Below are positions 31,814-60,330 of a DNA stretch of 64,000 bases, piece by piece (position 1 is the first letter of the stretch; each line of letters starts with the position of its first letter). Source of the DNA: Clostridium niameyense (GTDB lineage Bacteria; Bacillota; Clostridia; Clostridiales; Clostridiaceae); contig NZ_LN849007.1 of the NCBI RefSeq assembly GCF_001243045.1, positions 1,702,989 through 1,766,988 of the forward strand. Direction: 5' to 3'. The notes below the pieces were generated by a model. That model worked only from the letters and a program-made list of their open reading frames with translations. It was not told the origin of the DNA and searched no databases. A program made the translations under genes and the position numbers.

Positions 31814-32113
31814 AAAAAATCCCGTCTCTAGATAAATCTAGAGGACGGGAGTTATACTCACGCGGTACCACCTCGTTTTATTAAATACATTACTGTATTT
31901 AACCTTAGAAAGTACGATACTAAAAAGTATTTATACTTTAGCACTATAACGGGTGCAATTAACCGAAAACAGCCTACTACCTAAAAAGGGTTTGGTGATT
32001 AGCTCAGAGATGTATTCAAAATAGCTTTCTATACTCTTTTCCAGCAACTAGAGCTCTCTTTAAAAGAAAATCCATTTTTACTCTTTCTCTTCATAACTTT
32101 CAATTTAGTATTT
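31814..32113 (-). promoter_or_regulatory. Tyrosine T-box leader of tyrS
   Basis: Contains the T-box GGTGGTACCGCGT (31860-31872 on the minus strand) that pairs with the uncharged tRNA acceptor end. The terminator is CCCGTCCTCTAGA/TCTAGAGACGGG with a T run (31814-31849). The Stem I specifier loop GAATACATC carries the Tyr codon UAC at 32012-32014. AGAGAGCTCTAG and the AG-bulge elements of Stem I lie just upstream of it. Uncharged tRNA-Tyr should favour the antiterminator. Confidence 0.94.
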
Positions 32114-35673: not shown

Positions 35674-36591
35674 TTATTTAAGTTTAAATTCTAAAGCTTT
35701 TACTAAATTAGTTAACATCTCATTTACTGGTGTAGGTATTAAATATTTTTTTCCTTCTTCTACTATAGATTTATTTATAGTATCTATTTCAGTTCTTCTT
35801 TTATGTAAAATGTCTTGTAACATTGATGATTCATTTTCACTAGTATTAAATGCTACTTCCTTTACTTTTTTTATACTATGTTTTAAATTAAAATTAAAAC
35901 CTTTTGCATTGGCTACTTTGACCGCTTCTTCAACTGCCTTTTCCATAATATCTAATGCATATTGATTTTTTAACAAGTATCCATTTTTTATGTTTAATAT
36001 AGCTGTTATAGCATTAATACCTACATTTATAACTAACTTATTCCAAATTATTTTTATAGGCTCTTCACAAATTTCTGTTTTAAATCCTGCCTCATTTAAT
36101 ATATTATAAATTTCATACAACTTGTCTTTATTTTTCTTATCTATAATTCCTATATGTGTATCCCCACATCCCCCATGCTTAATATAACCTGATTTAATTC
36201 TTGTACAGCCATGAGATGTAGTTCCAAAAATTATATTTTCTATAGACACATATTTATTTATTTTTTCTACATTACCATAACCATTTTGTAAGGTCAATAC
36301 CATAGTATCTTTTCCTATTAAAGTTTTATTTTCTTTTATAACTCTCTCAGTATTTGTAGATTTTACAAATACAATAACTAAATCTGCAATACCTATACTA
36401 TCCGAATTTAAAATAGCCTTAGGATAGGTTTTTACACAACCTGTATTTTCTTCAATTATTAAACCTTCTTCATTAATCTTATTTACATGCTCTATCCAAG
36501 GATCTATTAAATATACTTTTTTATTATTTTTAGATAAATATCCCCCATACAAACACCCCATGGCACCTGCACCAATTATAGCTATCTTCAT
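35674..36591 (-). CDS. panE: 2-Dehydropantoate 2-reductase family protein
   Basis: NADPH-dependent ketopantoate reductase of 305 residues, a step in pantothenate and CoA synthesis. Rossmann motif GAGAMGCLYGGYL (7-19), VFVKSTNT (about 73), TLQNGYGNVEKI (about 99), the catalytic Lys region IIWNKLVINVGINAI (about 182) and the C-terminal HKRRTEIDTIN (about 265) all fit. Paralogues that reduce other 2-keto acids exist in clostridia, so pantoate synthesis is probable, not certain. It lies about 50 bases before fchA in the same direction and may be in one operon with fchA-folD. Confidence 0.85.
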   Translation of the reverse strand: MKIAIIGAGAMGCLYGGYLSKNNKKVYLIDPWIEHVNKINEEGLIIEENTGCVKTYPKAILNSDSIGIADLVIVFVKSTNTERVIKENKTLIGKDTMVLTLQNGYGNVEKINKYVSIENIIFGTTSHGCTRIKSGYIKHGGCGDTHIGIIDKKNKDKLYEIYNILNEAGFKTEICEEPIKIIWNKLVINVGINAITAILNIKNGYLLKNQYALDIMEKAVEEAVKVANAKGFNFNLKHSIKKVKEVAFNTSENESSMLQDILHKRRTEIDTINKSIVEEGKKYLIPTPVNEMLTNLVKALEFKLK

Positions 36592-36664
36592 AAAATTCTC
36601 TCCTCAATAATATAAATCTATTAACTACTATTTTACACCTTTAATAGAAATCCTTCCAAAAACA

Positions 36665-36703
36665 AAAATAAGCCTAACTTTTGAATAAAGTTAGGCTTAT
36701 TTT
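36665..36703 (-). terminator. Terminator of the psuKG remnant
   Basis: Sixteen-bp stem (36665-36680 with 36688-36703), 7-base loop, T-rich. It persists although the upstream genes are broken. Confidence 0.85.
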
Positions 36704-36735
36704 TATTATGCAAATTACAAATTTTAACCTGTTAA

Positions 36736-37539
36736 TTATAATCTAGCTAATTCTATAGCTAAATCAGATGCTACAGCTACATTATTATAAACTAATTTTA
36801 TATTAGATTCAAGGCTTTTTCCTTTAGTTATTTCTTTTACTTTGGCAAGTAAAAATGGTGTAGTTTCTTTTCCCTTTATTCCTTTTTCATTAGCTTCATT
36901 TAAGGCATCTTCTATAGCTTTATTTATAACATCATAACTCATTTGATATTTTTATGGTATTGGATTTGCTACAACCATTCCCCCTTGTAGATTTAAATCC
37001 CATTTAACCTTTAATGCTTTTGCAAAATCTTTTGCTGTATCTATCCTATAGTCTACCTTAAATTCACTTTTTCTAGTATAGGAGGCTGGTAATTCCTCTG
37101 TTCCAAAACCTACCACAGGCACCCCTTGGGTTTCTAAATATTCTATCCTAAATCTAGTATAGATTTAGCACCTGCACAAACTACTGCTAAATTTGCAATA
37201 ATCATAGTAGATGAAACTGTAGTTGCTCCATCTAAATTTTTTAGATATTATAAATGGTATATCTCTTCTACTTGTTTTAATAACTTCTGTTCCTTTTTTT
37301 CCTAGGTATTCTATTTCATCTTTTGTTAAGCCTACTTTTAATTTTCCATTTAATATAGCTATAGTTGCTAGTATTGCTCCCTTATCCCTTACTATTTTTT
37401 CTACACTTAAAGCCGTTTCTACATTTTGTGGATATGACATTCCATGGGATATTATAGTAGATTCTAATGCTACTACTGCTTTGTTTTCCTCTAGAGCTTT
37501 TTTAACTTCTTCATTAATTTCTAAATATTTTTCTAACAT
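36736..37539 (-). pseudogene. psuG: Pseudouridine-5'-phosphate glycosidase, inactivated
   Basis: The intact enzyme (about 305 residues) splits pseudouridine-5'-phosphate into uracil and ribose-5-phosphate. Here the N-terminus is in frame (VVALESTIISHGMSYPQN to TSRRDIPFIISKK). The frame then shifts near 37235-37245. The next segment (GATTVSSTMIIAN) runs straight into LAVVCAGAKSILDLG, so about 35 codons including the usual ATGGIGGVHRG stretch are deleted. A second frame disruption follows near 37150. The last part (LEYLETQGVPVVGFGTEEL, then VVANPIP) meets a TAA near 36957 before the C-terminus (SYDVINKAIEDALNEA to LVYNNVAVASDLAIELARL, 36736-36942). Several independent lesions show long-standing loss. 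Confidence 0.9.
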
Positions 37540-37845
37540 AATCCAATCTCCTTCATCTTATTATTTATATTCTCAACTGATATATTAGAATTAATAGTCT
37601 CTTCATGAGATAAAGCTAGTATAGAAGCTACCATTGAAAACTTTGTAATATTTTCTATAGAAAAATCATTTAAGTAACTATAAACCATTGAAAACGTCTC
37701 TTTTACTTTTTATAAAATCTAATGGTATTTTATCAAATATATCCATGTGAGCTATAGCCACTATCATATATCCTGTTTCATTTAATATAGATAGCTAGGT
37801 AGACGTAGCATTTTCTTGCATTATTATTTAATATTTCTTTTTTAT
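37533..37845 (-). pseudogene. psuK: Pseudouridine kinase (PfkB family), remnant
   Basis: Translated pieces in different frames match the middle and end of a PfkB-type pseudouridine kinase: LNETGYMIVAIAHMDIFDKI and PLDFIKSKRD, then YLNDFSIENITKFSMVASIL and ALSHEETINSNISVENINNK. The last frame ends in a TAG (37533-37535) that overlaps the psuG start, the usual coupled arrangement. The N-terminal half is missing and internal frames are broken (about 37640-37720 and about 37795). The right boundary is approximate. Confidence 0.75.
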
Positions 37846-37865
37846 AATAATCTAGCGTAATATAA

Positions 37866-37907
37866 AAAACTATCATCTACAATTTAAGTCTTGTAAATGA
37901 TAGTTTT
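37866..37907 (-). terminator. Terminator after the aspartate decarboxylase gene
   Basis: AAAACTATCAT/ATGATAGTTTT arms (37866-37876 with 37897-37907) with an inner TACAA/TTGTA pairing. Confidence 0.8.
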
Positions 37908-37943
37908 CTATTAATTTTTTGATTACTCGTTAATAATTTTAAG

Positions 37944-39584
37944 TTATTTTTTTGCGGAAGTATGAAGTTTCCATTCCTTTACATATTCTTCTAAAACAGT
38001 ATGCAGTACAGTTCCTATTTTTGAATATGCCTCATCATTAAGATTTGCTAGTGATATTCTAATAGACCATTCTGGTCCATAGAATCCTCCACCACCTAAT
38101 AAAACTATAGAAGATTTTTCGGCTAATCTTAATAATATATCTATAGGCTTATAATTTTTTTCTAAATAACTACTAAATTTCTCCCCATAATAGCAATTTG
38201 CCCACTCTAAAAGATCAAATTCAGTATAGTAGGATGCATCATATTTATCTTCTTCTAATTTTAATCCTAACCCCTCAAATAATAATCTTTTACGACGTCT
38301 ACATATGTTCTTGGTTAGGTTTTTATATTTTTTTTCTTTATCTAACACATCAAATATTGAGAAAAAGGCCATCTGTACTTGTTGAGGGGTAGAGAGTCCC
38401 GCTGTATGATTTAAAGCCACCTGTCTACTATCTGCTACAATTCTATCTATAAAAGGAATATCTTCTGGATTAGTAGATAATGCTTCATAACGTTTCTTTA
38501 ATGCTTCTTTTTTATCTGAAGGAAGTTCCTTTATCAATTTATCAAATACATTTTCTTCATAAAGAGCAATAGTACCAAGTCTCCATCCAGTTACACCAAA
38601 GTATTTTGAAAAGGAATAAACACCTATAGTATTAAAAGGTAAATCTGCTACTAAAGAAGTAAAACTATCTACAAAAGTTCCATATACATCGTCAGAAATT
38701 ATCATTAAATTAGGATTATTATTCTTAACTATTTCAACTATCTTTTCTATGGATTCTGGCTTTATTGCAACAGATGGTGGATTACTTGGATTCACTAAGA
38801 ATAAGGCTTTAATATCTGGATCTTTAAGCTTTTCAATTTCACTTTTGGGATATTGCCATGTATGTGTGCCATCCTCAGTGGTCTCTGATGCTCTAATTTT
38901 TACAACATTAAAATCATAACGAGGTATTAAAGGTATCTCTAAATAAGGTGTAAATATTGGTGTCATTAATGCAATTTTATCTCCTCGATTTAATAGTTCA
39001 TTTGCAATTAATGAATCAAATATATAACACATAGCTGCAGTAGCTCCTTCTACAGCAAATAAATTGAAGTTACCTTTTAATTGTTTATTGTAACATATTT
39101 CCTCCATTAAATAATCTTGTACTACTTTTTCTATATGTGTAAGCATTCTATCTGGTACTGGATAGTTATCTCCTATAATAGCATCTGCTAATTCATATAC
39201 CCAATCATCCTCATTAAACCCTTTAACCTTTATACCATAATTTATTATGTTATTTAAAAGTTCAATTGAAATTTCACCTTTATGTTTTTCTATATAATTA
39301 TTAAACCTTTTATAAATACCATCTTTTTGAGGCATTCCAGCTAAATCTCCATCATTCCATACTCTACGAGATTCTTCTACTGCAAATTGACCAAATGAAA
39401 AAAAAGCTTCTCGAGGAGTTGCTGCAATCCAGTTGGGATTTCCTCTTCCTGCATCTAATAATACATGAGCACTTTTTTCTCTTGGTCCTTTTGCAAAACT
39501 TATTAATTTATTTTTTAATTCAAAAGGACTAACTTTTCCATAGATTTTTTCTAGTTCCATACGTTGAAGATTATACTTATCCAT
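37944..39584 (-). CDS. asdA: Aspartate 4-decarboxylase (bifunctional aminotransferase)
   Basis: PLP enzyme of 546 residues, fold type I, that converts aspartate to alanine and CO2 and also transaminates. The long N-terminal extension (LDAGRGNPNWIAATPREAFF, WNDGDLAGMPQKDGIYKRF) is specific to this family. The PLP Lys is in GVYSFSKYFGVTGWRLG (about 325-335), and ALFLVNPSNPPSVAIKPE and IISDDVYGTF are the cofactor-binding segments. The paired aspartate:alanine antiporter AspT often next to this gene is absent here. The reaction can generate proton-motive force and raise pH when such an antiporter is present elsewhere. Confidence 0.9.
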   Translation of the reverse strand: MDKYNLQRMELEKIYGKVSPFELKNKLISFAKGPREKSAHVLLDAGRGNPNWIAATPREAFFSFGQFAVEESRRVWNDGDLAGMPQKDGIYKRFNNYIEKHKGEISIELLNNIINYGIKVKGFNEDDWVYELADAIIGDNYPVPDRMLTHIEKVVQDYLMEEICYNKQLKGNFNLFAVEGATAAMCYIFDSLIANELLNRGDKIALMTPIFTPYLEIPLIPRYDFNVVKIRASETTEDGTHTWQYPKSEIEKLKDPDIKALFLVNPSNPPSVAIKPESIEKIVEIVKNNNPNLMIISDDVYGTFVDSFTSLVADLPFNTIGVYSFSKYFGVTGWRLGTIALYEENVFDKLIKELPSDKKEALKKRYEALSTNPEDIPFIDRIVADSRQVALNHTAGLSTPQQVQMAFFSIFDVLDKEKKYKNLTKNICRRRKRLLFEGLGLKLEEDKYDASYYTEFDLLEWANCYYGEKFSSYLEKNYKPIDILLRLAEKSSIVLLGGGGFYGPEWSIRISLANLNDEAYSKIGTVLHTVLEEYVKEWKLHTSAKK

Positions 39585-39920
39585 TATAAAAACTCCTCTC
39601 TAGTTATAAGAAGTTACTGTAATTATGAAAATTTTACATAATTTAAGTTTATGTTATGCAAGTCTTCTTAAAAATATTCTTACATTAACTTCTATCTTTT
39701 ATATAATATTTTCCAGTTTCATTGTCTACTATTTCTTTTTAATTCTGAAAATAATCATACATTCTAAACTAAAAACAAAATTGTTTTAACTCTATAAATA
39801 ATATATCAAAAAATACCAGTACATGTAACATCTTGTTATCAATTTTACATTTTTATAATATATATATAACTTAAAATAGATATATTAATAATAAACAAGC
39901 TATAATTTTCACAAAATAAT
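39585..39920. other. Intergenic region upstream of asdA
   Basis: About 335 AT-rich bases. They hold the promoter of asdA (minus strand). No frame, T-box or riboswitch signature was seen. Confidence 0.3.
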
Positions 39921-39965
39921 AAATATAACCTCAATACTTTACCATTAAGTATCGAGGTTATATTT
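39921..39965 (-). terminator. Terminator of the ABC importer operon
   Basis: Nineteen-base arms with one A-C mismatch (39921-39939 with 39947-39965), 7-base loop, T-rich on the minus strand. Confidence 0.8.
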
Positions 39966-39978
39966 AAATTATATATAG

Positions 39979-40773
39979 TTAGGAAAATAGTACTCTATCG
40001 CTTAAATTATCACCTAATTTTATTTCTTCAAAACATTTAAATAATTTTTCTTTATTTAAATGCTCTTTACTTTCTCCATTTATGTCTAAAACTATGTTAC
40101 CTTTGTGCATCATAATAAGTCTATTACCATAATTTATAGCTACATTTAAATCATGAGTTATCATTAATGCAGTCATTTTATGTTCTTTAACTATTTTATT
40201 GGTAAAATTCATTATTATTTTAGAAGTTTTAGGATCTAACGCAGCAGTGTGTTCATCAAGCAATAATAATTTTGGTTTTTTCATTACTGCCATTATTAAA
40301 GATAAGGCTTGCCTTTGGCCTCCTGATAATGAACCTACTTTTACATTTAATTTATCTTCTAGTCCTAAATTTATCTCCTTTAGCATTTCTATAAATAAAG
40401 ATATATTTTTTTTGTCTATAGCTTTAGTAAGTCCAAATCTATGACCTTTATTATAAGCCATAGACATATTTTCTAATATAGTCATAGAAGGAGCAACTCC
40501 TTTTGATGGGTCTTGAAATACTCTTGCTATATACTTAGAATTTTCATATTCTTTATTAAAAGTTATATCTTTATTATCTAATAGTATCTTCCCTTTATCT
40601 AGTTTTATATTACCAGATATCATATTTAATATAGTAGACTTGCCTGCCCCATTACTACCTATTATGCTTATAAAATCTCCTTCATTTATATTTATATTAA
40701 AATCTTTAAATAACTTATTTTCATTTACTGTATCCCTATTGAATACCTTGCATAGATTGTTTATCTGTAACAT
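39979..40773 (-). CDS. ABC importer ATP-binding protein (TrpXYZ-type, COG1101)
   Basis: ATPase subunit of 264 residues. Walker A GSNGAGKST (about 38-46), signature LSGGQRQAL (about 148), Walker B LLLLDEHTAALDP (about 168-180; the DEHTAALDP form is typical of this subfamily) and a switch His in ITHDL. It overlaps the permease gene by 38 bases, so translation is coupled. With the two genes upstream it forms a putative importer of the COG2984-COG4120-COG1101 class, which includes tryptophan and other small-molecule transporters. The substrate here is unknown; HutP context suggests an amino acid such as histidine. Confidence 0.9.
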   Translation of the reverse strand: MLQINNLCKVFNRDTVNENKLFKDFNININEGDFISIIGSNGAGKSTILNMISGNIKLDKGKILLDNKDITFNKEYENSKYIARVFQDPSKGVAPSMTILENMSMAYNKGHRFGLTKAIDKKNISLFIEMLKEINLGLEDKLNVKVGSLSGGQRQALSLIMAVMKKPKLLLLDEHTAALDPKTSKIIMNFTNKIVKEHKMTALMITHDLNVAINYGNRLIMMHKGNIVLDINGESKEHLNKEKLFKCFEEIKLGDNLSDRVLFS

Positions 40774-41638
40774 TTAAATCCCCCTCTTTTCTAGCTTTTT
40801 TATGTGTTAGTGTAAAAGGTTTATTATTTATGCTTAAAGCTATAACTACAATAACTGCAGTAACTAGTTTTAAATCTGTAGGTGCTAATCCTACCACTAA
40901 TGCAAAGGCTACAGCTAATTTATAAACTAAAGCTCCTAAAATTACTGTAGTAGTTTGTTTTAAGAATTTTATATCTTTAAATACAGATTCACCTATAATT
41001 ACAGATGCAAGGCCCATTACTACTATACCAGTTCCCATACCTACATCACAAAATCCTTGATATTGAGCCATCAAAGCCCCTCCTAAAGCTACCATACCAT
41101 TAGATATCATTAAGCCTAATATTTTTATCGCATCTTTATTAACCCCTAGAGATGTAACTAACTGTTCATTATCCCCTACCGCCTTTAATATAAATCCTGT
41201 GTTTGTACTTAAAAATAAGTCCATAGATATTTTAACTATTAAAAGAATAACTGTAATTATGATTATAGGATACATAGTCTTTGAAAATAAATGAGTTCTA
41301 TCAAATAAAGGTATATTAGATTTTTTCATTATTCTTAAATTAACAGAATATAAACCCACCATAACTAATATGCCTGAAAGTAAGTTACTTATTTTAAACT
41401 TAACATGAAGTATTCCTGTAGCTAATCCTGCTATAGCCCCTCCAATTATAGCTAAAGCACATCCTATTATGGGATTCATTCCTTTAACTAAGCATATCCC
41501 TACTATAGCTGCTCCTAATGGGAAAGTTCCATCTACAGAAAGATCTGGAAAATCTAAAATTTTATAAGTTATATAAACTCCGAAACATACAATAGAAAAT
41601 ATAAATCCTTGTTCTAAAACACTTAATAATATATCCAT
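40736..41638 (-). CDS. ABC importer permease (TrpXYZ-type, COG4120)
   Basis: Membrane subunit of 300 residues with eight to nine helices, related to branched-chain amino-acid permeases. Typical segments are LDFPDLSVDGTFPLGAAIV near the N-terminus (the DLSVDG(T/S) motif is diagnostic), ALGGALMAQYQGFCDVGMGTG in the middle and a Lys/Arg-rich C-terminus. Its ATG directly follows the stop of the binding-protein gene, and its end overlaps the ATPase gene. Expression control is described at the leader (42637-42945). Confidence 0.9.
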   Translation of the reverse strand: MDILLSVLEQGFIFSIVCFGVYITYKILDFPDLSVDGTFPLGAAIVGICLVKGMNPIIGCALAIIGGAIAGLATGILHVKFKISNLLSGILVMVGLYSVNLRIMKKSNIPLFDRTHLFSKTMYPIIIITVILLIVKISMDLFLSTNTGFILKAVGDNEQLVTSLGVNKDAIKILGLMISNGMVALGGALMAQYQGFCDVGMGTGIVVMGLASVIIGESVFKDIKFLKQTTTVILGALVYKLAVAFALVVGLAPTDLKLVTAVIVVIALSINNKPFTLTHKKARKEGDLNVTDKQSMQGIQ

Positions 41639-42646
41639 CTATTTTACACCATCCTTAACTTTTTCTGATTTTTCCTCTATATTCTTAGGAATATTTATAT
41701 TAAGTTTCTTAGCCATTTTTTCGTTTACTACAAGCTGAGTATTTTTCATGAACTTAATGTTCATATCCTTAGGATTTTCGCCATTTATTATTTTTAAAGC
41801 TAAATTAGCTGATTCCTCACCTAACTTATAATAATCTATACCACAAGTTGCTAAAGCTCCTCCTTGTACGTGTGCCTTTTCTGAGCCCATTATTGGTATA
41901 TTTTTTTTAGTGCACTCACTACTTATAAACGGCATAGAAGATGCCACTGTATTATCTGTAGGTATAAACATTATATCTACTTTATTTAAAATTGAAGCTA
42001 AGGATTGGTGAATATCATTCACATTAGTTATACCTTGTTTAACAATTTTAAGTCCAAACCTTTTAGCAGATTTTTCTGCCTCTTTAACTTGAATCTCTGA
42101 ATTTTTTTCACTGGTATTATATAAGATACCTATAGTCTTTTTCCCAGGCAATATTTCCTCAATAAGTTTAAAATTTTCATCTATAGATATTTTATCGGAA
42201 ACTCCCACTACATTAGTTCCTGATTTATCCACAGATTTTACAATACCTGCCTGTACAGGATCTGTAACCGCAGTCATAACTATAGGAATATTCTTTGTTG
42301 AATTGAAAGCTGCTTGCGCAGATGGTGTGGCTATAGCAAAAATTATGTCTTTTCTTTTGGCTGAAAATGTTTGAGCTATAGTTTGAATTGTAGTCATATC
42401 TCCTTGTGCATTTTGAAAATCAATTTTTATATTTTCTCCATCTTTGTGACCTTTTTTATTTAAGGTATCTACAAAGCCTTTTCTTGCTAAGTCCAATGCA
42501 GGATGTTCTAAAATCTGCATTATACCTATATTAATTACTTTTTTATCCTTTAAATTTCTAGAGCTATTAATTTTTAAGCAAACTCCTAAAATTACTAAAG
42601 ATAAAATTATAGATATAAAAATACCTATGTTTTTTCTTTCTACCAT
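41639..42646 (-). CDS. ABC importer substrate-binding protein (ABC_sub_bind, TrpX-like)
   Basis: Binding protein of 335 residues with an N-terminal hydrophobic anchor (about 8-25) and no lipobox Cys. The mature domain has the COG2984 pattern: INIGIMQILEHPALDLARKGFVD, IAQTFSAKRKDIIFAIATPSAQAA, NIPIVMTAVTDPVQAGIV and AHVQGGALATCGIDYYKLG. The same fold is used as the sensor domain of the protein at 823-3780. The ATG at 42646 has AGGAGG 8 bases upstream. The start codon lies inside an 8-base unit repeated many times in the leader. First gene of a three-gene operon; ligand unknown. Confidence 0.9.
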   Translation of the reverse strand: MVERKNIGIFISIILSLVILGVCLKINSSRNLKDKKVINIGIMQILEHPALDLARKGFVDTLNKKGHKDGENIKIDFQNAQGDMTTIQTIAQTFSAKRKDIIFAIATPSAQAAFNSTKNIPIVMTAVTDPVQAGIVKSVDKSGTNVVGVSDKISIDENFKLIEEILPGKKTIGILYNTSEKNSEIQVKEAEKSAKRFGLKIVKQGITNVNDIHQSLASILNKVDIMFIPTDNTVASSMPFISSECTKKNIPIMGSEKAHVQGGALATCGIDYYKLGEESANLALKIINGENPKDMNIKFMKNTQLVVNEKMAKKLNINIPKNIEEKSEKVKDGVK

Positions 42647-42945
42647 GCTACCATCCTCCTAATGTATTAAATTTTATATTTTGAAAGCTTAATAAATTTC
42701 AACCTTTAATTTAGACAATAAAAAATCTCTTCCTGTAGAAGAGTACAATTAATAAGCCTTTTAAATAAAGGTTAAAAAATATCTACTACCAAACTACCAT
42801 GCTACAATTTTTCACTACCATACTACTTTTATAAATCAATACCAATTTGATTTATAACCACTATACTACTTTTAAATTTATAACTACTACACTACTATTT
42901 TAATCATCTTAAGTTTTAAATTATTATGCCAATAAAAAATATTTT
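42637..42945 (-). promoter_or_regulatory. Leader with spaced NAG triplets and terminator hairpin; candidate HutP target
   Basis: Transcript leader of about 300 bases. Near-identical 13-base copies occur at 42883-42895 (GTAGTGTAGTAGT), 42857-42869 (GTAGTATAGTGGT), 42814-42826 (GTAGTATGGTAGT) and 42793-42805 (GTAGCATGGTAGT), the last continuing with TTGGTAGTAG to 42783. They resolve into 8-base units RGUAGYRU in groups of 2, 2, 2 and 3. Three more units in perfect register (AGGAGGAT, GGTAGCAT, GGTAGAAA; 42637-42660) cover the Shine-Dalgarno and AUG of the binding-protein gene. A hairpin TTATAAATCAA/TTGATTTATAA lies between copies 2 and 3 (42830-42858). A terminator-like CTCTTC/GAAGAG plus T run is at 42717-42743. 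AACCTTT near 42770 can pair locally with AAAGG or distally with AAAGGTT near 42702, so alternative folds exist. Binding by the adjacent HutP is inferred. Confidence 0.7.
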
Positions 42946-42951
42946 AGAACT

Positions 42952-42980
42952 ATTATACATATTCTCAAAATTTTTGTCAA
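42952..42980 (-). promoter_or_regulatory. Sigma-A promoter of the ABC importer leader
   Basis: TTGACA (42975-42980), 17-base spacer, TATAAT (42952-42957) on the minus strand, both perfect. It places the transcript start near 42945 and makes the importer operon separable from hutP upstream. Confidence 0.92.
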
Positions 42981-43020
42981 CTAATATTTAATTTTACAGT
43001 AATAAAATTAAATAAATACT

Positions 43021-43437
43021 TTATAAATCTGGAATAGAACGATGACCTAAACCTATTACAACTTCATTTAAATGTAAAAGTCCTATACTCATAAATATAC
43101 AAACACTTAAATGTTCTCCTGATTTGGCTATACCTATCTTTCCACCTACATTTAATCCGTTAGCTTTTTCCATAACCTGAAATAGAGCCTCCCTTGTAGC
43201 TCCTGCTACAGCACCATCATGTACATGACATTCCTTGGTTAATCCTGATCTTTTAGCCGCTACTAAAGCTCTTTCTATTATTTTACTCATAGATACATTT
43301 ATATTCCCACCTACATCCACAGCTGTTGTTAATATACCTTCTTTTTTATATTTATTCATTAATACTTTTTCTTCTTCTCTCGAAGATATGGACATTTTTA
43401 CAGAAGCCTTAGCTACTTTTTCACTTTCTATTTTCAA
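43021..43437 (-). CDS. hutP: HutP-family RNA-binding antiterminator-like regulator
   Basis: Protein of 138 residues of the HutP family. Bacillus HutP is a hexamer that needs L-histidine and Mg2+ to bind spaced UAG triplets in hut mRNA and prevent termination. Matching segments are the N-terminal helix (VAKASVKMSISSREEEKVLM), the core GAVAGATREALFQVM (about 75-89) and the C-terminal HLNEVVIGLGHRSI (about 122-135). The two His before the core (CHVHDG, His71 and His73) and His132 may form the metal/ligand site, arranged differently from what I recall of the Bacillus His73/His77/His138 set. TTG 43437 is the start, with AGGAGG 7 bases upstream. No hut genes are in the window; the next genes downstream form the ABC importer with a UAG-rich leader. 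Confidence 0.85.
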   Translation of the reverse strand: MKIESEKVAKASVKMSISSREEEKVLMNKYKKEGILTTAVDVGGNINVSMSKIIERALVAAKRSGLTKECHVHDGAVAGATREALFQVMEKANGLNVGGKIGIAKSGEHLSVCIFMSIGLLHLNEVVIGLGHRSIPDL

Positions 43438-43579
43438 AATAATACCTCCTATTATGTTTTATAAAAGAGATTTATCATAAAATTAAGCATTGCCCTGAAA
43501 ATTCACAATTCACTTAAAATCAGTTTAATTATAACATATAAATATCAATATAAACATTTTTTATTTATAATAAAATGAA

Positions 43580-43597
43580 GGTAGTAAATTTACTACC
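43580..43597 (-). terminator. 18-base perfect palindrome; terminator of the codBA remnant or hutP operator
   Basis: GGTAGTAAATTTACTACC reads the same on both strands and is followed on the minus strand by TTCATTTTATT. It lies between the decayed codA end and hutP. A terminator is the simplest reading; its symmetry also allows a DNA-binding site for hutP control. Confidence 0.5.
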
Positions 43598-43629
43598 CTC
43601 ATTTCAAATAATTAATTTAATATTATTTA

Positions 43630-44016
43630 TTAAATTGCACTATTTTTAGTTATTAAGTCTAAATATTTATTTATTTCATCATATCCCATAAGTTCCTTAA
43701 TCCTTATTATACCTCTTCTTTTCGGATAAGTATCAAATCTTCCCTGAAGATGAGTATTAACCAGCGGATTAGCTACAAAATCTATTTTAGATATTTTTAA
43801 AAGTCTAAATTATTTATATGTATAGGCATTATTGTAAGAATGCATTGCTATAGTATAACTTGCTGTAACTCTTTCGCCAATGTTATTTTCATAGGCCCTT
43901 GTAGCTACTACTTCTATAAGTCTAGATTGTTCATCATCTATTTCATCACAATGTACATCTTTTAATGCTTCTTCTACAACTTCAAAACCACCCTTAAAAT
44001 ATAATATTTTTTCCAC
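43630..44016 (-). pseudogene. codA: Cytosine deaminase, decayed remnant
   Basis: Broken pieces match CodA in order. First EVVEEALK, joined by a deletion to [20 protein letters not shown], then [19 protein letters not shown] (the metal-site HxD region and a TxxMHSYN segment). A stop follows near 43810, then in another frame [20 protein letters not shown] and [18 protein letters not shown] further deletion jumps to [19 protein letters not shown], ending at a TAA near 43630. Intact CodA is about 420 residues, so more than half is lost, including the N-terminal HxH region. The enzyme cannot be functional. Confidence 0.85.
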
Positions 44017-44029
44017 CTAGAACTGCTAA

Positions 44030-44190
44030 ACAAATTGTTTAAAATTAAGCCCTATCCCTAAACTTCCTCCTGTCCACATACTTGCAGAGAAAAAGTAAAT
44101 CCAAGCATTACCATAAGCATAGATAAAAATCCCCCTTTTATCTTTTTCACCCACTGCCTATAAAGAAAAATCGTGATCATAATTTTCATT
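44030..44190 (-). pseudogene. codB: Cytosine permease N-terminal remnant
   Basis: Pieces in two frames match the start of the CodB permease: SMLMVMLGFTF, then after a one-base shift FSASMWTGGSLGIGLNFKQF, then LAVLGGK. After that the sequence runs by deletion into codA. The rest of the permease (about 380 residues) is gone. It sits directly downstream of a PyrR attenuator, the expected place for a pyrimidine-controlled codBA operon. Confidence 0.7.
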
Positions 44191-44250
44191 TTTGTTTATA
44201 GTTTATCCTTCTCTTCTAGTTCAAAATTTTTGATTAGATAAACTAGTACT

Positions 44251-44417
44251 TAAAAAATAAAGGCTTTTGTCAATACTGACAAAAGCCTAAATCACTAATT
44301 AAATTTTAATATACCCATAATATTCATTCCACTTTGTCAGCCTCTCTGGACTAATTTAAAAGTACTAGCTATTCGATTTTTTCACTTAATTATTTTACAA
44401 AACTCAAATTATGTCAA
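44251..44417 (-). promoter_or_regulatory. PyrR-responsive attenuator and promoter of the codBA remnant
   Basis: Minus-strand promoter TTGACA (44412-44417), 17-base spacer, AATAAT (44389-44394). The leader has the PyrR loop AGTCCAGAGAGGCT (44339-44352), matching the conserved UCCAGAGAGGCU element of pyr mRNAs. It ends with a perfect 12-bp terminator AGGCTTTTGTCA/TGACAAAAGCCT (44261-44272 with 44277-44288) and a T-rich tract (44251-44260). GCTGACAAAG just after the loop can form part of an antiterminator with the terminator's left arm. High UMP bound to PyrR would favour termination. The genes it controlled are decayed. Confidence 0.87.
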
Positions 44418-44419
44418 TG

Positions 44420-45583
44420 CTAGAATAAATCTTTAAGCTTATCTCCAAATAAATCACCTAAAGTTGTATTTTCCTCTTTAGAATCATCATATTTTGAAAA
44501 GTCTTGTGCTGGCTTCTCTATAGCTTCTTTTATGCTTAATGACATCCTCTTTTCTTCTGGATCTATTTCTAATACTTTTACCTTCACCTTATCTTGTAAA
44601 TTTAATTTTTCTGAAGGTTTTGCTATATTCTCATTACTTATTTCTGAAATATGAACTAATCCCTCTATTCCCTTTTCTACTTCCACAAAAGCCCCAAAGT
44701 TTAATAGTTTAACTACTGTACCTTCTACTACATCTCCTTGTTTAAATTTATCTGCTACAGTATTCCATGGATTTTCCTTTATATTCTTTAAAGCTAAAGC
44801 AATTCTTTTAGTTTCCTTGTCAAAATCTAATATATAAACTTCTACTTCATCCCCTATTGAAACTACTTCTGATGGGTGATTTACTCTACCCCAAGATAAT
44901 TGAGAGTTGTGTATTAATCCATCTACTCCTCCAATATCTACAAAAGCTCCAAACCTTTCTAATCTTCTTACAGTTCCTTTAACCTTTTCTCCCTTTTTTA
45001 AATTATCCCATAGCTTTTGAATTTTTATCTTTTCCTTTTCTTGTAATACTATTTTTCTTGACAATACAACTTTTCCTTTTTTTCTATCTAATTCTATTAA
45101 TTTAACTTCTAATTTTTTACCTTTAAAATTCTCTAAGCTATCTATATATTTATTATCTATATGAGAAGCTGGTATAAAAGCTCTTATGCCATTTATATAA
45201 GCAGTAACTCCACCTTTTACTATATTTTCTACAGTAACTTCTAATATTTCTTGTGACTTAAAACTCTTAATTAATTCTTTCCAAGCATTTTCTTCATCAG
45301 CTTTTTTCTTAGACAACACTACATTACCTTCTCCATCATTTATATCTAGAACATAAACATAAACTTCATCATTTTCTTTTATAAAATCTTTAAGATTTTC
45401 TTCTTCATTATATAAAAATTCTTCTTTTTTAACTATTCCATCAGATATATAGCCTATATTAAGTACTACTTCTTTATCTGAAACTGAAATAACTCTTCCT
45501 TTTACTATATCTCCTCTATGTATTTTTTTCATGGTAGATTCAATATCACCCATTATATCCTTCATTGAGATTTCCTCTGTCAT
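44420..45583 (-). CDS. rpsA: S1-domain RNA-binding protein (ribosomal protein S1-like)
   Basis: Protein of 387 residues with four S1 domains, at about 17-85, 102-165, 187-255 and 272-340 (GDIVKGRVISVSDKEVVLNIG, EVTVENIVKGGVTAYINGIRAF, GEKVKGTVRRLERFGAFVDIG, GDVVEGTVVKLLNFGAFVEVE). This is the short S1 form of Firmicutes. It binds single-stranded mRNA and may assist translation initiation or mRNA stability. The C-terminal acidic tail is normal. The codBA promoter overlaps its 3' end, and no terminator is visible between them. Confidence 0.9.
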   Translation of the reverse strand: MTEEISMKDIMGDIESTMKKIHRGDIVKGRVISVSDKEVVLNIGYISDGIVKKEEFLYNEEENLKDFIKENDEVYVYVLDINDGEGNVVLSKKKADEENAWKELIKSFKSQEILEVTVENIVKGGVTAYINGIRAFIPASHIDNKYIDSLENFKGKKLEVKLIELDRKKGKVVLSRKIVLQEKEKIKIQKLWDNLKKGEKVKGTVRRLERFGAFVDIGGVDGLIHNSQLSWGRVNHPSEVVSIGDEVEVYILDFDKETKRIALALKNIKENPWNTVADKFKQGDVVEGTVVKLLNFGAFVEVEKGIEGLVHISEISNENIAKPSEKLNLQDKVKVKVLEIDPEEKRMSLSIKEAIEKPAQDFSKYDDSKEENTTLGDLFGDKLKDLF

Positions 45584-45716
45584 ACAATAACAACCCCTTA
45601 TTTATTTTTTATATTAATATAATTTTATCATAATTTAAAACATATATAAAAATAATATATGCTATATACCTATATATTATCAAATAATTATGAGTTATTT
45701 CTTAATTTTATTTAAT

Positions 45717-45740
45717 AAAAAAAGGATGATATACTCATCC
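45717..45740 (-). terminator. Terminator about 150 bases past the PEPCK-like gene
   Basis: GGATGA/TCATCC stem with 5-base loop followed by seven T on the minus strand. The 145 bases between it and the PEPCK-like stop have no intact frame. They carry fragments (IIVLVFVCIN and FLDSMVYIPYKKVDKEI in adjacent frames) that may be the relic of a small membrane protein. Confidence 0.75.
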
Positions 45741-45885
45741 CTTTAATCTATACATACTTTTTCCATTTGTCATATTTCTTTATCTACTTTTTTGTATGGA
45801 ATATATACCATGCTATCTAAAAAAATAACTCCCATTAATGCAGACAAATACTAAAACTATAATTACTATAAATATTTAAATCTTA

Positions 45886-47625
45886 TTATAAATTTTTTAT
45901 TTCATCTAATAACTCTGTAGCAGCTTTTTTAGGACCATCTTTTTCCATACCATCTATTCCTAATCTTGTTCTCAATTGACCTACTCGTACACCTGAATTA
46001 AAGAATTTATCAAAATAAACCTTTAAAAGTTCTTCTGTTTCTTCTCTTTTTTGAGCTGGTCCAAAAGGATTTGCAAAATAAGTTTTTACAAGACCTTTTT
46101 CTGTAGTAGTACCTTTTGCCATTCTAGCGCCTTCTCTAAACACATTCATTGCACTCTTTGCATCTTTAAAATATTCTAAATCTGCTCCATCTTTTTCATA
46201 ATTGTTTGCATATAAGAATAAATCTACTGGATATCCTTTAGTTATTTCTTTATGAGTCGCTACTGGTATAACTAATCTTGCATTAACTTTATCTGGATTC
46301 ATAAATATACTTCTATCAATTTGTTTAAAAGCATATCCTGTATCTAAATCATCTAATCTAACAAAAGCACCTATTTCTGTACCATAACCTAATGGTTTCC
46401 CATCTCCATTTAGTTTTACTACACCCATATCATCAAATATTATAGTCATATCGCTAATATAGTCTTCACTTAATTCTCTAAAGGCTTCTAAACTTTCTGA
46501 CTTTCCTGCACCACTATCTCCCATTATAATTACATTAGCAGTCTTATTATTTTTAGTAACTATATTAACCATTGCACCATGTATAGGAAGATATCCCTCT
46601 TTTATCATTATTAAATTGTGTAAAGTTAAAGTCATTTTTTTCATATATCCAAAATAATCTATAGCATCATTATAATTTACATAACCTAACATAATGTTAT
46701 TTTTCTTATCATTATAAAACACTGTTTTAATATCCTTATCATGGTCTCTTGCACCAAATACATAAACTATATCTGGATTTTTTTCCCTATATTCTTCTTC
46801 TCTAGCCATTTCAAATAAGTTACATAAAGTAATACCATGATCCATAAAATCTCTATGAAAATATATATAAGCTAAAAGTGACCCAACTTTTGCTGGATAA
46901 CAAAACCAATGGTCTACATTTATTCTACAATTTTTTAATGGATTATCATCAGTTTCTGTAAACATACCGTCTCTTTTATTTTTCTTAGGATAAGTTATAA
47001 AAGGTGGATCTAACAATATAGATTCTATAAAAGGAACTTTCTTAAGAACCTCATATTCGTTAGGGGCATCCCAAGAAGAACTATTTAAAATAACCCCAGC
47101 ATTTCCGCCAGCTGGAAGCTGTCTATATACATTAGGCTTATATCCTATAACATTTTCTTCTATTTTTCTGTAAGTTCTTAATATAAGATTAGAAAAACCA
47201 TTATTGGCCTCAATAAAACTCACATTTTGAAATCCTTCCCTTTTTTTGTTGTTTTGTACTATGGTATATCTCTCGAGTTTTCTCCAAAAATTGTATAAAT
47301 CTTCTATAAACATAACAAATTTATCTTTATCTTTTAAAATTTCTGCATACTTAGGTTTTAATTCTATAATCTCGTCAGCTTTTAAAATCATTAACATTTT
47401 AAATACATTAGTTATATCATCCAAAAAAGCTTCGGTATTTTTTTCTTCTAAATTATCCTCTATGTATTTATATATATTACTTTCTTTTCTCTTTATTTTA
47501 TCTATGTATATTGATAAAACCTTTCTAAATCCATAACTATTAAATAAAGCTTCTGGAGTATCACAATATTTTGCTGTAAAATTTATCATAGCTTTTCCAT
47601 TACTTAAAGAAAATTCTTTCTGCAT
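45886..47625 (-). CDS. Phosphoenolpyruvate carboxykinase-like protein
   Basis: Protein of about 579 residues. It has a P-loop GDSGAGKSE (about 373-381) and an acidic FDDMGVV about 35 residues later, an arrangement shared by PEPCK and HPr kinase. Similar clostridial proteins are annotated as ATP-type PEP carboxykinase. The usual PEPCK motif GLSGTGKTT is absent, and the N-terminal 200 residues are unlike the classic enzyme, so function as PEPCK (oxaloacetate plus ATP to PEP) is not certain. ATG 47625 is chosen because GGAGG lies 10 bases upstream; an in-frame ATG 48 bases earlier is possible. Single gene. Confidence 0.65.
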   Translation of the reverse strand: MQKEFSLSNGKAMINFTAKYCDTPEALFNSYGFRKVLSIYIDKIKRKESNIYKYIEDNLEEKNTEAFLDDITNVFKMLMILKADEIIELKPKYAEILKDKDKFVMFIEDLYNFWRKLERYTIVQNNKKREGFQNVSFIEANNGFSNLILRTYRKIEENVIGYKPNVYRQLPAGGNAGVILNSSSWDAPNEYEVLKKVPFIESILLDPPFITYPKKNKRDGMFTETDDNPLKNCRINVDHWFCYPAKVGSLLAYIYFHRDFMDHGITLCNLFEMAREEEYREKNPDIVYVFGARDHDKDIKTVFYNDKKNNIMLGYVNYNDAIDYFGYMKKMTLTLHNLIMIKEGYLPIHGAMVNIVTKNNKTANVIIMGDSGAGKSESLEAFRELSEDYISDMTIIFDDMGVVKLNGDGKPLGYGTEIGAFVRLDDLDTGYAFKQIDRSIFMNPDKVNARLVIPVATHKEITKGYPVDLFLYANNYEKDGADLEYFKDAKSAMNVFREGARMAKGTTTEKGLVKTYFANPFGPAQKREETEELLKVYFDKFFNSGVRVGQLRTRLGIDGMEKDGPKKAATELLDEIKNL

Positions 47626-47821
47626 AACAATAAAACCTCCAACCATGAAATTTAATTTAGTTAAATCCTTCATTTTAAATTACTAAGTACAATTATATCA
47701 TATATTTTTGAAATTTATATACTTTTATTTATTCATTTTATATAAAAAATAAACACTATATAATTTAACTTTATAAATTATATAGTGTTCATTATATTCT
47801 GCGATAATATCAAAGCATTTA

Positions 47822-49552
47822 TTATAACTTAAGCTTTTCAAGTTTAACTATAAGTGTTTTTGATACATCATTTAAATTTTCTGTTATATTAGATAAATAC
47901 TTAACTGAAGTAATTTGTGATTCTATACTACTTGTAATTTCATCTGCTGATAAACTATTTTCTTTAGATACGTGAGCTAAATTTTCAATTTGTTCAGTTA
48001 TACTCATAATGTTAGATGCCATTTCCTGCGAAGCTAAGGACACTTCTTCTATCATATTAGAAACCTCATTTATAGATATAACTATCTCTTCAAATTTAGA
48101 GTTGGCATTTTTGACAAAATTATTTTGTTCCAAAGTTTTTTGTGATACTTCCTTCATAGATTCACTTGCATCTTCTATACCTTTTCTTACCTCTTGAATC
48201 AAATTAAATATTTCTTCTGAGGAATTAGAAGATTCCTCTGCTAACTTCTTAACCTCTTCTGCTACAACTACAAATCCTTTTCCTTGTTCCCCTGCACGAG
48301 CAGCTTCTATAGAAGCATTAAGAGCTAACAAATTAGTTTGAGATGCAATAGCACCTATAGTATCTGCTATTCCATTTATTTGTTCTGACTTATCCCCAAG
48401 CCCTGTTACTAATATAGAAGTTTCTTCTACCACATTAGAAATTTCTTTAGAATGGTCTTGCAATTTTCCCATAAATTTATTTCCTTCTGTAGCATGCTCT
48501 GTTGTATTTATAGCATGTTGTGTTACTTTTTGTGAATTACTAGCTACTTGAGTTACTGCAGAATTTATTTGTTCAACCCTATTTGAAGTCTCTACAAGCC
48601 AAGAACTTTGTTCCTCTATTTTTTTACTTATATTTGTAGTAAGGAAATTTACATTTTTAAATTGTTTGGCTGCATCAGAAAAAGATTTACAAAACTCTTC
48701 ATTATCCTTATCTAATGTATTTGAAACTTCTTTAACTTCCTTTAATATATTTTGAATTGCATCTAGCATTCTATTAGTATATAAAGCTAATTCTCCAATT
48801 TCATCATTACTATCTATATAAATTCTTTTTGTTAAATCTCCTTCTAAATTAGATATTTCCCTCATTTTATCAACTAAAATTACTATAGAATTAGTTTGTT
48901 TTTTAGCTATTCTTCCTACTATTAATCTTACAATTAACAAAGCTACTATTAGTAAAATAGCTAAAATGGCTAATAGTAAATATTTAGCCTTTATAATCAT
49001 ACTATTATTTAACCCTATACATATAGCTATATTTACATTATGATTTGCTTTTAAAGGTATAAATATATTTAAATCCTTAGTTCCATCTTTAACTTGTGGT
49101 TTATTTTCACTTACAGCTTTTTTTATATTTTCTAAATTACTCTCATTAGTGTAAGTTTGTCCAAATTTTTGTGGACTATTTTGTGTTTTGTCAATAATAT
49201 ATCTCCAACTTTTATCCGAATCATTTATAAGTATATATGCCCCATCAATTAAACCATTTGCCTTGGATATTAATAAATCCATTGATCTATTTATCTTTTT
49301 ATAGATATCACTATTTTCCTTTTCAGTAGTTAAAGCCGTTAAGTCTTTTCCTTCTAATTCATGAGATACTATTGAAGATATTCCGGGACCTGCACTAACA
49401 GCTATTGTTTTTATAACTTTACTAATAAATATATAAGAACATATGCCAATAACTAAAAATAGAGAGATAATAAGACACATAATATTTTTTATCCATTTAT
49501 TTTTAATAGTAGTTTTTTTAATTCTAATCATCCCCTTGTATAATTTTTGCAT
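47822..49552 (-). CDS. Methyl-accepting chemotaxis protein, transmembrane
   Basis: Chemoreceptor of 576 residues. Two membrane helices (about 25-50 and about 190-212) flank an extracellular sensor of ~140 residues (single-Cache-like: [20 protein letters not shown]). HAMP is at about 213-265 and the signalling coiled coil at about 280-570 with the hairpin tip [33 protein letters not shown]. Signals pass to CheW/CheA. The start is unclear: ATG 49552 has no ribosome site, and ATG 49531 immediately follows AAGGGG. Ligand unknown. Confidence 0.92.
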
Positions 49553-49692
49553 TTTAAATCATATATGTTAATTACAATAAATATTAGCATATATTATATA
49601 TAGTTTGAAATTAATTTTTTGTAAATATCTTATATATTTATTAAATATATATATAAATAAAAACTTGTGAATTTGATTCACAAGTTTTTATT

Positions 49693-50274
49693 TTAATATT
49701 CGTAAACAGATACATTTTCGCATACTGTAACTTTTAATAATTTATCTTTAAAAAGCTTTTTATAAGAACATAGGAATTCATTTAACTCACTATCTTGCAA
49801 ATTTATTTTTGACTTACTTTTTAACATAACATTATTATCATTAACTTCTATTGTTAAATCATTTAATTCATTTTTTATGTTATAATAAATTGTTTGTTTT
49901 ATTTGAGGAGTTAAATTATATTTTTCATTAAAACTCATACTCTTTCTTATGGATTCATAATTTAAACTATCAAAATCTATACCCATATCTTTCATGTCTA
50001 TACCTAATGATTTCATTTCACCTTTTATATCCTCTAAATTAAATCCATACATATTTGAATATTTTTCCATAAGTTTTTTTTGTATATTACTAAACTTCTC
50101 TTCAGATATGTTGTTTTTATTCATATAGTCTTTTATTTTAGTCATAAACTCTGACATATTTAAAGTTCCATCTGCTATTGACGCATATAAGCTATACACA
50201 TATTGTTCAAATTTATCTAAATCCTTATCTGTAGCCTTATTTTTTAAATCATCAAAACTTATAATTTCACTCAT
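49693..50274 (-). CDS. Clostridial hypothetical protein (DUF3867-like)
   Basis: Cytoplasmic, mostly helical protein of 193 residues, strongly charged, without signal peptide or known catalytic motif. The pattern (ISFDDLKNKATDKDLDKFEQYVYSLYASIADGTLNMSEF) resembles a clostridial family I recall as DUF3867. Its own hairpin lies at 49658-49690. GGAGAG precedes the ATG. Function unknown. Confidence 0.65.
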   Translation of the reverse strand: MSEIISFDDLKNKATDKDLDKFEQYVYSLYASIADGTLNMSEFMTKIKDYMNKNNISEEKFSNIQKKLMEKYSNMYGFNLEDIKGEMKSLGIDMKDMGIDFDSLNYESIRKSMSFNEKYNLTPQIKQTIYYNIKNELNDLTIEVNDNNVMLKSKSKINLQDSELNEFLCSYKKLFKDKLLKVTVCENVSVYEY

Positions 50275-60063: not shown

Positions 60064-60330
60064 TAAAAAAGTCAATCGCCCTCTTAGGGACGATTGACTC
60101 GCGTTGCCACCCTTTTTAACCATACTATATTTACAAATAATATGATTCTCTCAATTATATAACGGTTTTATCCGAATTACTTATCGCAATTACCTCCAGG
60201 GTGGATTCACTAAAATATGAAGTATCAGCTTACAGCAAACACTGACTCTCTTTAACTTATATCCAAGTTACTATTCCTATCATTGGCAGCTATTAAATTT
60301 TTTCAAAACTCAATTTTAAATGTTGAGTTT
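60064..60330 (-). promoter_or_regulatory. Serine T-box leader of the serine operon
   Basis: Minus-strand T-box GGGTGGCAACGCG (60099-60112), terminator GTCAATCG/CGATTGAC with T run (60064-60098), and a Stem I specifier loop GTGAATCCACCC with the Ser codon UCC at 60203-60205. AGAGAGTCAGTG of Stem I lies upstream. Uncharged tRNA-Ser should permit readthrough into the aminotransferase, serA and DUF1015 genes. Confidence 0.93.

Follow-up and report, generated by a model that had tools for sequence, protein, structure and literature searches.

What does a HutP-family protein regulate when its gene lies beside an importer operon? HutP is a classic metabolite-sensing RNA-binding antiterminator, and the analysis described here ties a large clostridial branch of its family to UAG triplets that lie 8 nucleotides apart at importer start codons. 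The DNA analysed is a stretch of 64,000 nucleotides from Clostridium niameyense (hereafter, the window), in which the hutP gene has no linkage to hut (histidine degradation) genes and is followed by the genes of an ABC importer instead (Table 1). According to the original prediction, a HutP-family gene lies upstream of an importer operon with a promoter of its own, a leader bearing NAG triplets in groups of 2, 2, 2, and 3 at an 8-base period, a terminator-like hairpin, and three more units in register over the Shine-Dalgarno sequence and the AUG of the first gene. Each of these elements is present, and the observation as a whole was confirmed.

Table 1. Features of the hutP-importer locus, in window coordinates
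Feature	Position	Strand	Basis
hutP-family gene (PF09021), 138 aa, TTG start	43021..43437	(-)	profile match
Importer-operon promoter, TTGACA-N17-TATAAT	42952..42980	(-)	sequence
UAG/NAG triplet array, period 8, groups 2, 2, 2, 3; proposed HutP-binding leader	42783..42897	(-)	conserved in relatives
GUAGUAGA, end of the array; candidate antiterminator strand, complementary but for one mismatch to the terminator 5′ arm	42782..42789	(-)	
Intrinsic terminator, CTCTTCT-aca-GGAAGAG-ATTTTTT	42720..42743	(-)	sequence
AGGAGGATGGTAGCATGGTAG, three NAG triplets 8 apart over the Shine-Dalgarno sequence and AUG	42640..42660	(-)	
Substrate-binding protein (PF04392), tyrosine-type (Glu256, Tyr272)	41639..42646	(-)	
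Permease (PF02653)	40736..41638	(-)	
ATPase (PF00005)	39979..40773	(-)	

In the window's leader, UAGs at 42897 and 42889 are interleaved with UAGs at 42894 and 42886; an AAG at 42871 with a UAG at 42863, two UAGs at 42825 and 42817, and three UAGs at 42804, 42796, and 42788 follow. At the start site, GAG (42658), UAG (42650), and UAG (42642) are exactly 8 apart (GAG-N5-UAG-N5-UAG). Upstream of the start site there are five TAG pairs at distance 8, a number reached by none of 5000 dinucleotide shuffles (mean 0.30, maximum 4), while the plain number of TAGs is ordinary (14 versus 10.7 in the shuffles, p 0.10). Thus, it is the spacing and not the number of the triplets that is non-random. In the other leaders (n = 46), the best promoter site has no mismatch in 17, one in 19, two in nine, and three in one, as a raw count. 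Between rpsA and hutP, the window also has a PyrR-binding attenuator (Rfam, 64.8 bits; 44253-44366, minus strand), after which comes a decayed stretch with stops (43640-44250, minus strand) whose fragments resemble a cytosine permease and a deaminase by eye. Judged by eye, the attenuator and the decayed stretch read like the remains of a pyrimidine-salvage operon.

Is the protein a true member of the HutP family? The ORF matches the whole PF09021 profile (E 4.2e-45; 153.6 bits against a curated cut-off of 25; residues 8-133 of 138). A structure comparison was needed because HutP was absent from the PDB matches of a single-sequence search with the window protein and was reached only at E 0.16 by a profile search of the PDB. 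The comparison revealed that the window protein has the HutP fold. The protein belongs in PF09021, and the system is filed here as a new variant of HutP-type regulation and not as a hut antiterminator.

The original prediction also stated that the His ligands of this protein are rearranged. In Bacillus HutP, these residues coordinate Mg2+ and histidine, and their three positions are 73, 77, and 138. Four hut-type HutPs (L151-L154) keep the HALYH-like and EHE motifs, and their neighbours, named by eye, are histidine ammonia-lyase (HutH)-like at L151-L153 and imidazolonepropionase (HutI)-like at L154. In ten rows of the window's group, the His columns of these four proteins hold Gly75, Gly79, and Glu125. 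These three residues are invariant across 49 sequences of the group, importer-linked or not, and so are His71, His109, His122, and His132. The rearrangement is therefore real and common to the group. One genome (G020) has three HutPs, of which the third is a divergent relative (L155, 3036-3452, minus strand) adjoining an IclR-like regulator and a peptidase-like gene, both named by eye.

Are the spaced units conserved? A scan of one genome per species with a two-peptide pattern, which favours close relatives of the window's HutP, gave 89 confirmed HutP loci, and the best 80 were used. An importer lies within 1.5 kb downstream of hutP in 46 of these 80, and several of the remaining loci are short contigs. 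The binding protein gene comes first in 45 of the 46 importers and the permease gene in one (L020); the leader statistics cover the 45 binding-protein-first leaders and the window (n = 46), with L020 left out. Start codons were picked by the Shine-Dalgarno score and not by the motif. It was found that, counted without regard to kinship, the 46 leaders hold 151 TAG pairs at distance 8 (the window's five included), compared with 16.6 in shuffles of the other 45. Distances 5, 9, 11, 13, 16, and 18 are also raised (46 to 68 pairs each), which is partly expected from UAGUAG doublets and runs. The controls have no excess at distance 8, with five pairs upstream of hutP and one on the antisense strand.

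At the importer starts, UAG occupies both -4 to -2 and +5 to +7 in 41 of 46 cases (the exceptions are L012, L055, L059, L061, and L062), and GAG occupies -12 to -10 in 39 of 46. A non-coding GGUAG at -6 to -2, between the Shine-Dalgarno sequence and the AUG, is nearly invariant, for which no coding or ribosome-binding reason is evident. Conservation of the 8-base units and of the start-codon units in related genomes, on which the original prediction had staked its case, thus held. In a second Clostridium clade (L132, L134, L135, and, with an intervening gene, L133), hutP lies near an importer and the UAGs at the start are only irregular. Two distant members (L136 and L137) have AGGAGGACGGTAGTATGGTAG or AGGAGGACGGAAGAATGGTAG at the importer start and almost no upstream UAG array; from these, the start-codon site may be older than the array. 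An Rfam search of the window's leader found no family there. No T-box covariance-model match was found in window positions 36000-50000 up to E 1, and no T-box was found in the other 46 leaders by a simple pattern.

Might the start-codon units be read otherwise, either as a tiny upstream frame spanning the start site (AUG-GUA-GYA-UGG-UAG) or by a different RNA-binding protein? An ATG at -8 to -6 in 36 of the 46 importer starts suits such a frame. However, the AUG is absent from the other ten, and three of the five symporter sites described below have AAG in its place with the UAG spacing kept, so the tiny frame is not conserved and was rejected. Another reader of the units is opposed by the finding that the start motif tracks the presence of HutP, as follows. 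I regard both versions as very improbable.

Of 206 genomes of one family, 125 have HutP (124 above the cut-off), 114 have the importer, and 47 have the strict start motif, whose reversed control pattern matched five. Forty-four genomes have both motif and HutP, three the motif only, 80 HutP only, and 79 neither (Fisher 1.6e-8, ignoring phylogeny). The importer occurs with HutP in 103 genomes and without it in 11, and the genomes without the importer comprise 21 with HutP and 71 with none (kinship again ignored). None of the 11 genomes having the importer without HutP has the start motif. The three motif genomes outside the 44 have it at unrelated places, namely at a response-regulator-like gene start in G105 and G217, which have no HutP, and inside a coding sequence in G111, which has a sub-threshold HutP fragment; these three were judged to be chance matches. 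Altogether, 52 motif sites comprise 43 importer starts, one stop-interrupted importer match (G191), five starts of Na+ symporters, and three places elsewhere. In G191 (contig C1, around 1858000), the HutP match and the importer match both contain a stop while the start motif persists, as if the pair were decaying together or the sequence were at fault.

In seven genomes (G015, G016, G017, G024, G134, G159, and G163), hutP is elsewhere, at least 3.5 kb away or not upstream at all, and the importer has nevertheless kept the motif. This retention argues that HutP acts in trans. The tie between HutP and the importer, a further part of the original prediction, is thus supported by conserved synteny, by co-occurrence, and by the motif being kept when the genes are unlinked. 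The motif is also selective among importers. A search of 18 genomes with the importer protein gave 28 matches in 17 genomes; the start motif is present on 17 of the 28, one per genome, and absent from the other 11 (four of them weak, L118-L121).

Are there other members of the regulon? A 13-base pattern gave 19 matches in 14 genomes, and four of them are outside the hutP-importer leaders and importer starts: one at a symporter start (L082), two inside coding sequences (L084 and L085), and one between ORFs with no recognisable gene start (L083). An 11-base pattern gave 36 matches in 20 HutP genomes and its reversed form gave 55, so the shorter pattern carries no signal. Seven places fetched from G138 and G184 are one leader beside hutP (L148), five sites in coding sequences on either strand, and one intergenic site (L150). 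A plasmid search gave no match and a viral-contig search none that was confirmed, and a phage search gave one unannotated faecal record (L001).

Of the 124 HutP genomes, 21 have no importer by this search. Three of the 21 have a hut-type HutP (L151-L153), and in G138 and G184 hutP is 209 and 815 bases from a contig end. Ten of the importer-less genomes were fetched, and in all of them hutP is followed by different genes, such as adhE-like and AAA-ATPase-like ones (named by eye), so HutP must have further or older roles. At L058, L064, L065, L067, and L070-L079, a HutP-family gene without an importer is followed by genes for a large ComEC-like membrane protein and a DNA-polymerase-subunit-like protein, with one intervening ORF at L079; the genes of this recurring neighbourhood were named by eye.

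How might a protein on these sites act? The original prediction allowed for antitermination, translational occlusion, or both. A terminator lies between the array and the start codon in 35 of the 46 leaders, and none was found in 11. In 31 of these 35 leaders, the stretch that pairs best with the terminator's 5′ arm overlaps a UAG; the best-pairing units contain GGAGA facing UCUCC in 22 of 35, and L050 and L054 have changed in step (AGGCGAG facing CUCGCCU). The leaders' own arms pair better than swapped ones (p 5e-5 for the 35 leaders and 0.0009 for 23 distinct arms). Several units were compared in each leader and the best-pairing one was kept; it is the UAG nearest the terminator in six of the 35 leaders and one of the four nearest in 33. 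The antiterminator pairing is hardly above shuffles (mean z 0.63), the window's own pairing has to be allowed one mismatch and falls below its shuffles (z -0.8), and the folding energy of the leader is ordinary (z -0.65). If the pairing is real, a protein on the pairing unit would favour the terminator and would therefore agree in sign with occlusion of the start codon, where a bound protein can only hinder translation. Since in most leaders the terminator 5′ arm pairs best with a UAG unit, which is modest evidence, and since a protein on the start site hinders translation, termination together with translational occlusion fits better than antitermination. Where a leader lacks a terminator, control would act on translation alone.

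The same regulator and sites might instead work with the classical sign of the Bacillus hut operon, where the occupied array would prevent termination and so switch on the importer. Known HutP is reported (PMC7430163) to prevent terminator formation and to be activated by histidine and Mg2+. Terminators after the array in 35 of 46 leaders are consistent with this sign, and the opposing antiterminator pairing is itself modestly supported. However, the start-codon triplets, which are the best conserved part, leave a bound protein no effect other than hindering translation, and in the proposed pairing the UAG units belong to the antiterminator strand. In the Bacillus hut leader, a HutP site overlaps the terminator itself. 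I consider the classical sign rather unlikely. Of the two mechanisms allowed for at the outset, translational occlusion fits better and antitermination in the Bacillus sense has become less likely.

What does the importer carry? The closest solved relative of its binding protein is 6hni (CD0873; E 1e-95). According to PMC6816091, CD0873 is a tyrosine binder in which Glu-263 holds the hydroxyl and Tyr-279 keeps tryptophan from fitting, and phenylalanine and tryptophan binders are reported there to carry Ala at the Glu-263 place. The equivalents in the window's binding protein are the Glu and Tyr given in Table 1. Of 49 aligned HutP-linked proteins, one (L061) is cut short; the 48 others reach the site and all carry an acidic residue (Glu or Asp) at it, the residue pairs being 46 Glu/Tyr, one Asp/Tyr, and one Glu/Phe. 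In the same genomes, three paralogues preceded by T-boxes have Val at the Glu site, and the paralogue T-boxes have a UUC codon slot (phenylalanine) in six of the seven shown. Three T-boxes lie ahead of each of the paralogues L104 and L111, two of those at L104 being below the gathering score. Six further paralogues are of the Glu/Tyr type but not linked to HutP, and the four of these that were checked (L114-L117) have no start motif. Thus, tyrosine import also runs without the HutP system. A tryptophan-importer label for the window's binding protein was rejected, because the protein scores 335 bits where NCBIfam requires 390 for TrpX.

The symporters with the start motif (L082, L122, L123, L130, and L131) are members of the sodium-dependent transporter family, an assignment based on NCBIfam for L122 and L123 and on likeness to these two, judged by eye, for the other three. 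The closest solved relative of the L123 symporter is 4us3, presumably MhsT. T-boxes with a UAC codon slot were found at L122 and L131 (by Rfam alignment) and at L082 (by eye); since the symporter T-boxes have one extra loop base, the position of the slot was read off the Rfam alignment. The reading of the slot was checked with a T-box in the window (31838-32103, minus strand), which has UAC ahead of tyrS. A second T-box in the window (60083-60292, minus strand) has a UCC slot ahead of aminotransferase-like and phosphoglycerate-dehydrogenase-like genes (named by eye), which suggests serine control; the aminotransferase-like gene had no NCBIfam match at E 1e-60. Judged from these protein and RNA sequences, tyrosine is with good confidence the cargo of the importer, and I infer that it is also the ligand of HutP. 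In C. difficile, tyrosine uptake feeds p-cresol production, as reported in PMC6816091.

The original prediction had suggested histidine as both ligand and cargo. For HutP to be a histidine sensor here too, with an importer for histidine or a related compound, would accord with its PF09021 membership and its HutP fold. Against it, the importer residues match a tyrosine binder, three of the five symporter targets have UAC T-boxes, and the hut-type histidines (HALYH-like and EHE motifs) are replaced by the two glycines and the glutamate described above. Because of these three observations, histidine is put aside as improbable. A less remote alternative is that HutP controls tyrosine uptake while sensing a different cue, such as another aromatic amino acid, a related acid, or a metal. 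The computed evidence bears on the ligand only indirectly, and three solved members of the binding-protein family are reported in PMC6816091 to hold three different aromatic amino acids. Both target classes, on the contrary, point to tyrosine. The regulator of a dedicated importer commonly senses the cargo of that importer. A different cue is, in my estimation, unlikely but the most serious of the alternatives.

The fold, the repeats, their conservation, the co-occurrence, the retention of the motif when unlinked, and the tyrosine signature of the cargo protein are computed; RNA binding, the sign of control, and the ligand are put forward here as proposals. With its ligand bound, most likely tyrosine, an oligomer of HutP would sit on the UAG/NAG triplets 8 nucleotides apart. 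On the start-codon triplets it would block the Shine-Dalgarno sequence and the AUG, and on the array it would sequester a UAG unit of the 3′ portion, keeping this unit from pairing with the 5′ arm of the terminator and so allowing the terminator to form. At low tyrosine, both blocks would be released and the importer would be made. This two-block model in full, in which the clostridial HutP branch binds RNA in trans and thereby represses tyrosine importers, is the reading I find probable, with some reserve. The broader proposal is that evolution has turned the HutP fold, independently of TRAP, into a TRAP-like repressor that senses tyrosine and acts at two levels (termination and start-codon occlusion) with a sign opposite to that of HutP; its small regulon, controlled in trans, would comprise ABC importers and sodium symporters across the Clostridia. 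For this, the chances seem to me about evenly balanced. The original interpretation is thus partly supported: the HutP-importer tie, the units, and the rearranged histidines stand, histidine as ligand and cargo finds no support, and Bacillus-type antitermination is the less likely sign.

Has such a system been described? Among the matches listed from the open-licence full-text literature, judged by titles and the beginnings of abstracts, no report of HutP at importers was found, and an earlier description elsewhere is possible. In these matches, HutP is connected with the use of histidine by Bacillus and with nothing else, other occurrences being unrelated abbreviations. The nearest known protein is Bacillus subtilis HutP, the hut operon antiterminator (PDB 1vea, 1wpv, and 1wmq). 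In both systems the target leader carries NAG/UAG triplets at regular intervals, with a period of 7 in Bacillus and 8 in the window. In contrast to Bacillus HutP, the target in the window is a tyrosine-type importer and not the hut genes, triplets lie over the start codon, the His ligand positions are Gly, Gly, and Glu, and the sign would be repression. If true, one RNA-binding fold would be shown changing its ligand, its spacing, and its regulatory sign.

TrpXYZ of Streptococcus suis is reported in PMC9382623 to be a T-box-controlled aromatic amino acid importer. The T-box importers (S. suis TrpXYZ and the loci L104, L111, and L112) have the importer family and the RNA control of termination in common with the window, whereas the window's leader has no T-box and a protein would read the RNA in place of a tRNA. 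The CD0873 lipoprotein of C. difficile shares the Glu and Tyr selectivity residues of the window's binding protein. HutP of this branch would then be a protein-based tyrosine sensor beside the T-box. In logic, the closest likeness is to TRAP, the amino-acid-sensing protein on NAG repeats that controls the trp genes in Bacillus, causing termination upstream and blocking ribosome binding at the tryptophan importer gene trpP. TRAP is an 11-subunit ring whose repeats are separated by 2-3 nucleotides. Unlike TRAP, the window protein has the unrelated HutP fold, the spacers are 5 nucleotides, and the ligand would be tyrosine instead of tryptophan; the likeness is in the logic and not in the protein. 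If the model is true, the clostridial HutPs would be a second natural solution to the problem that TRAP solves.
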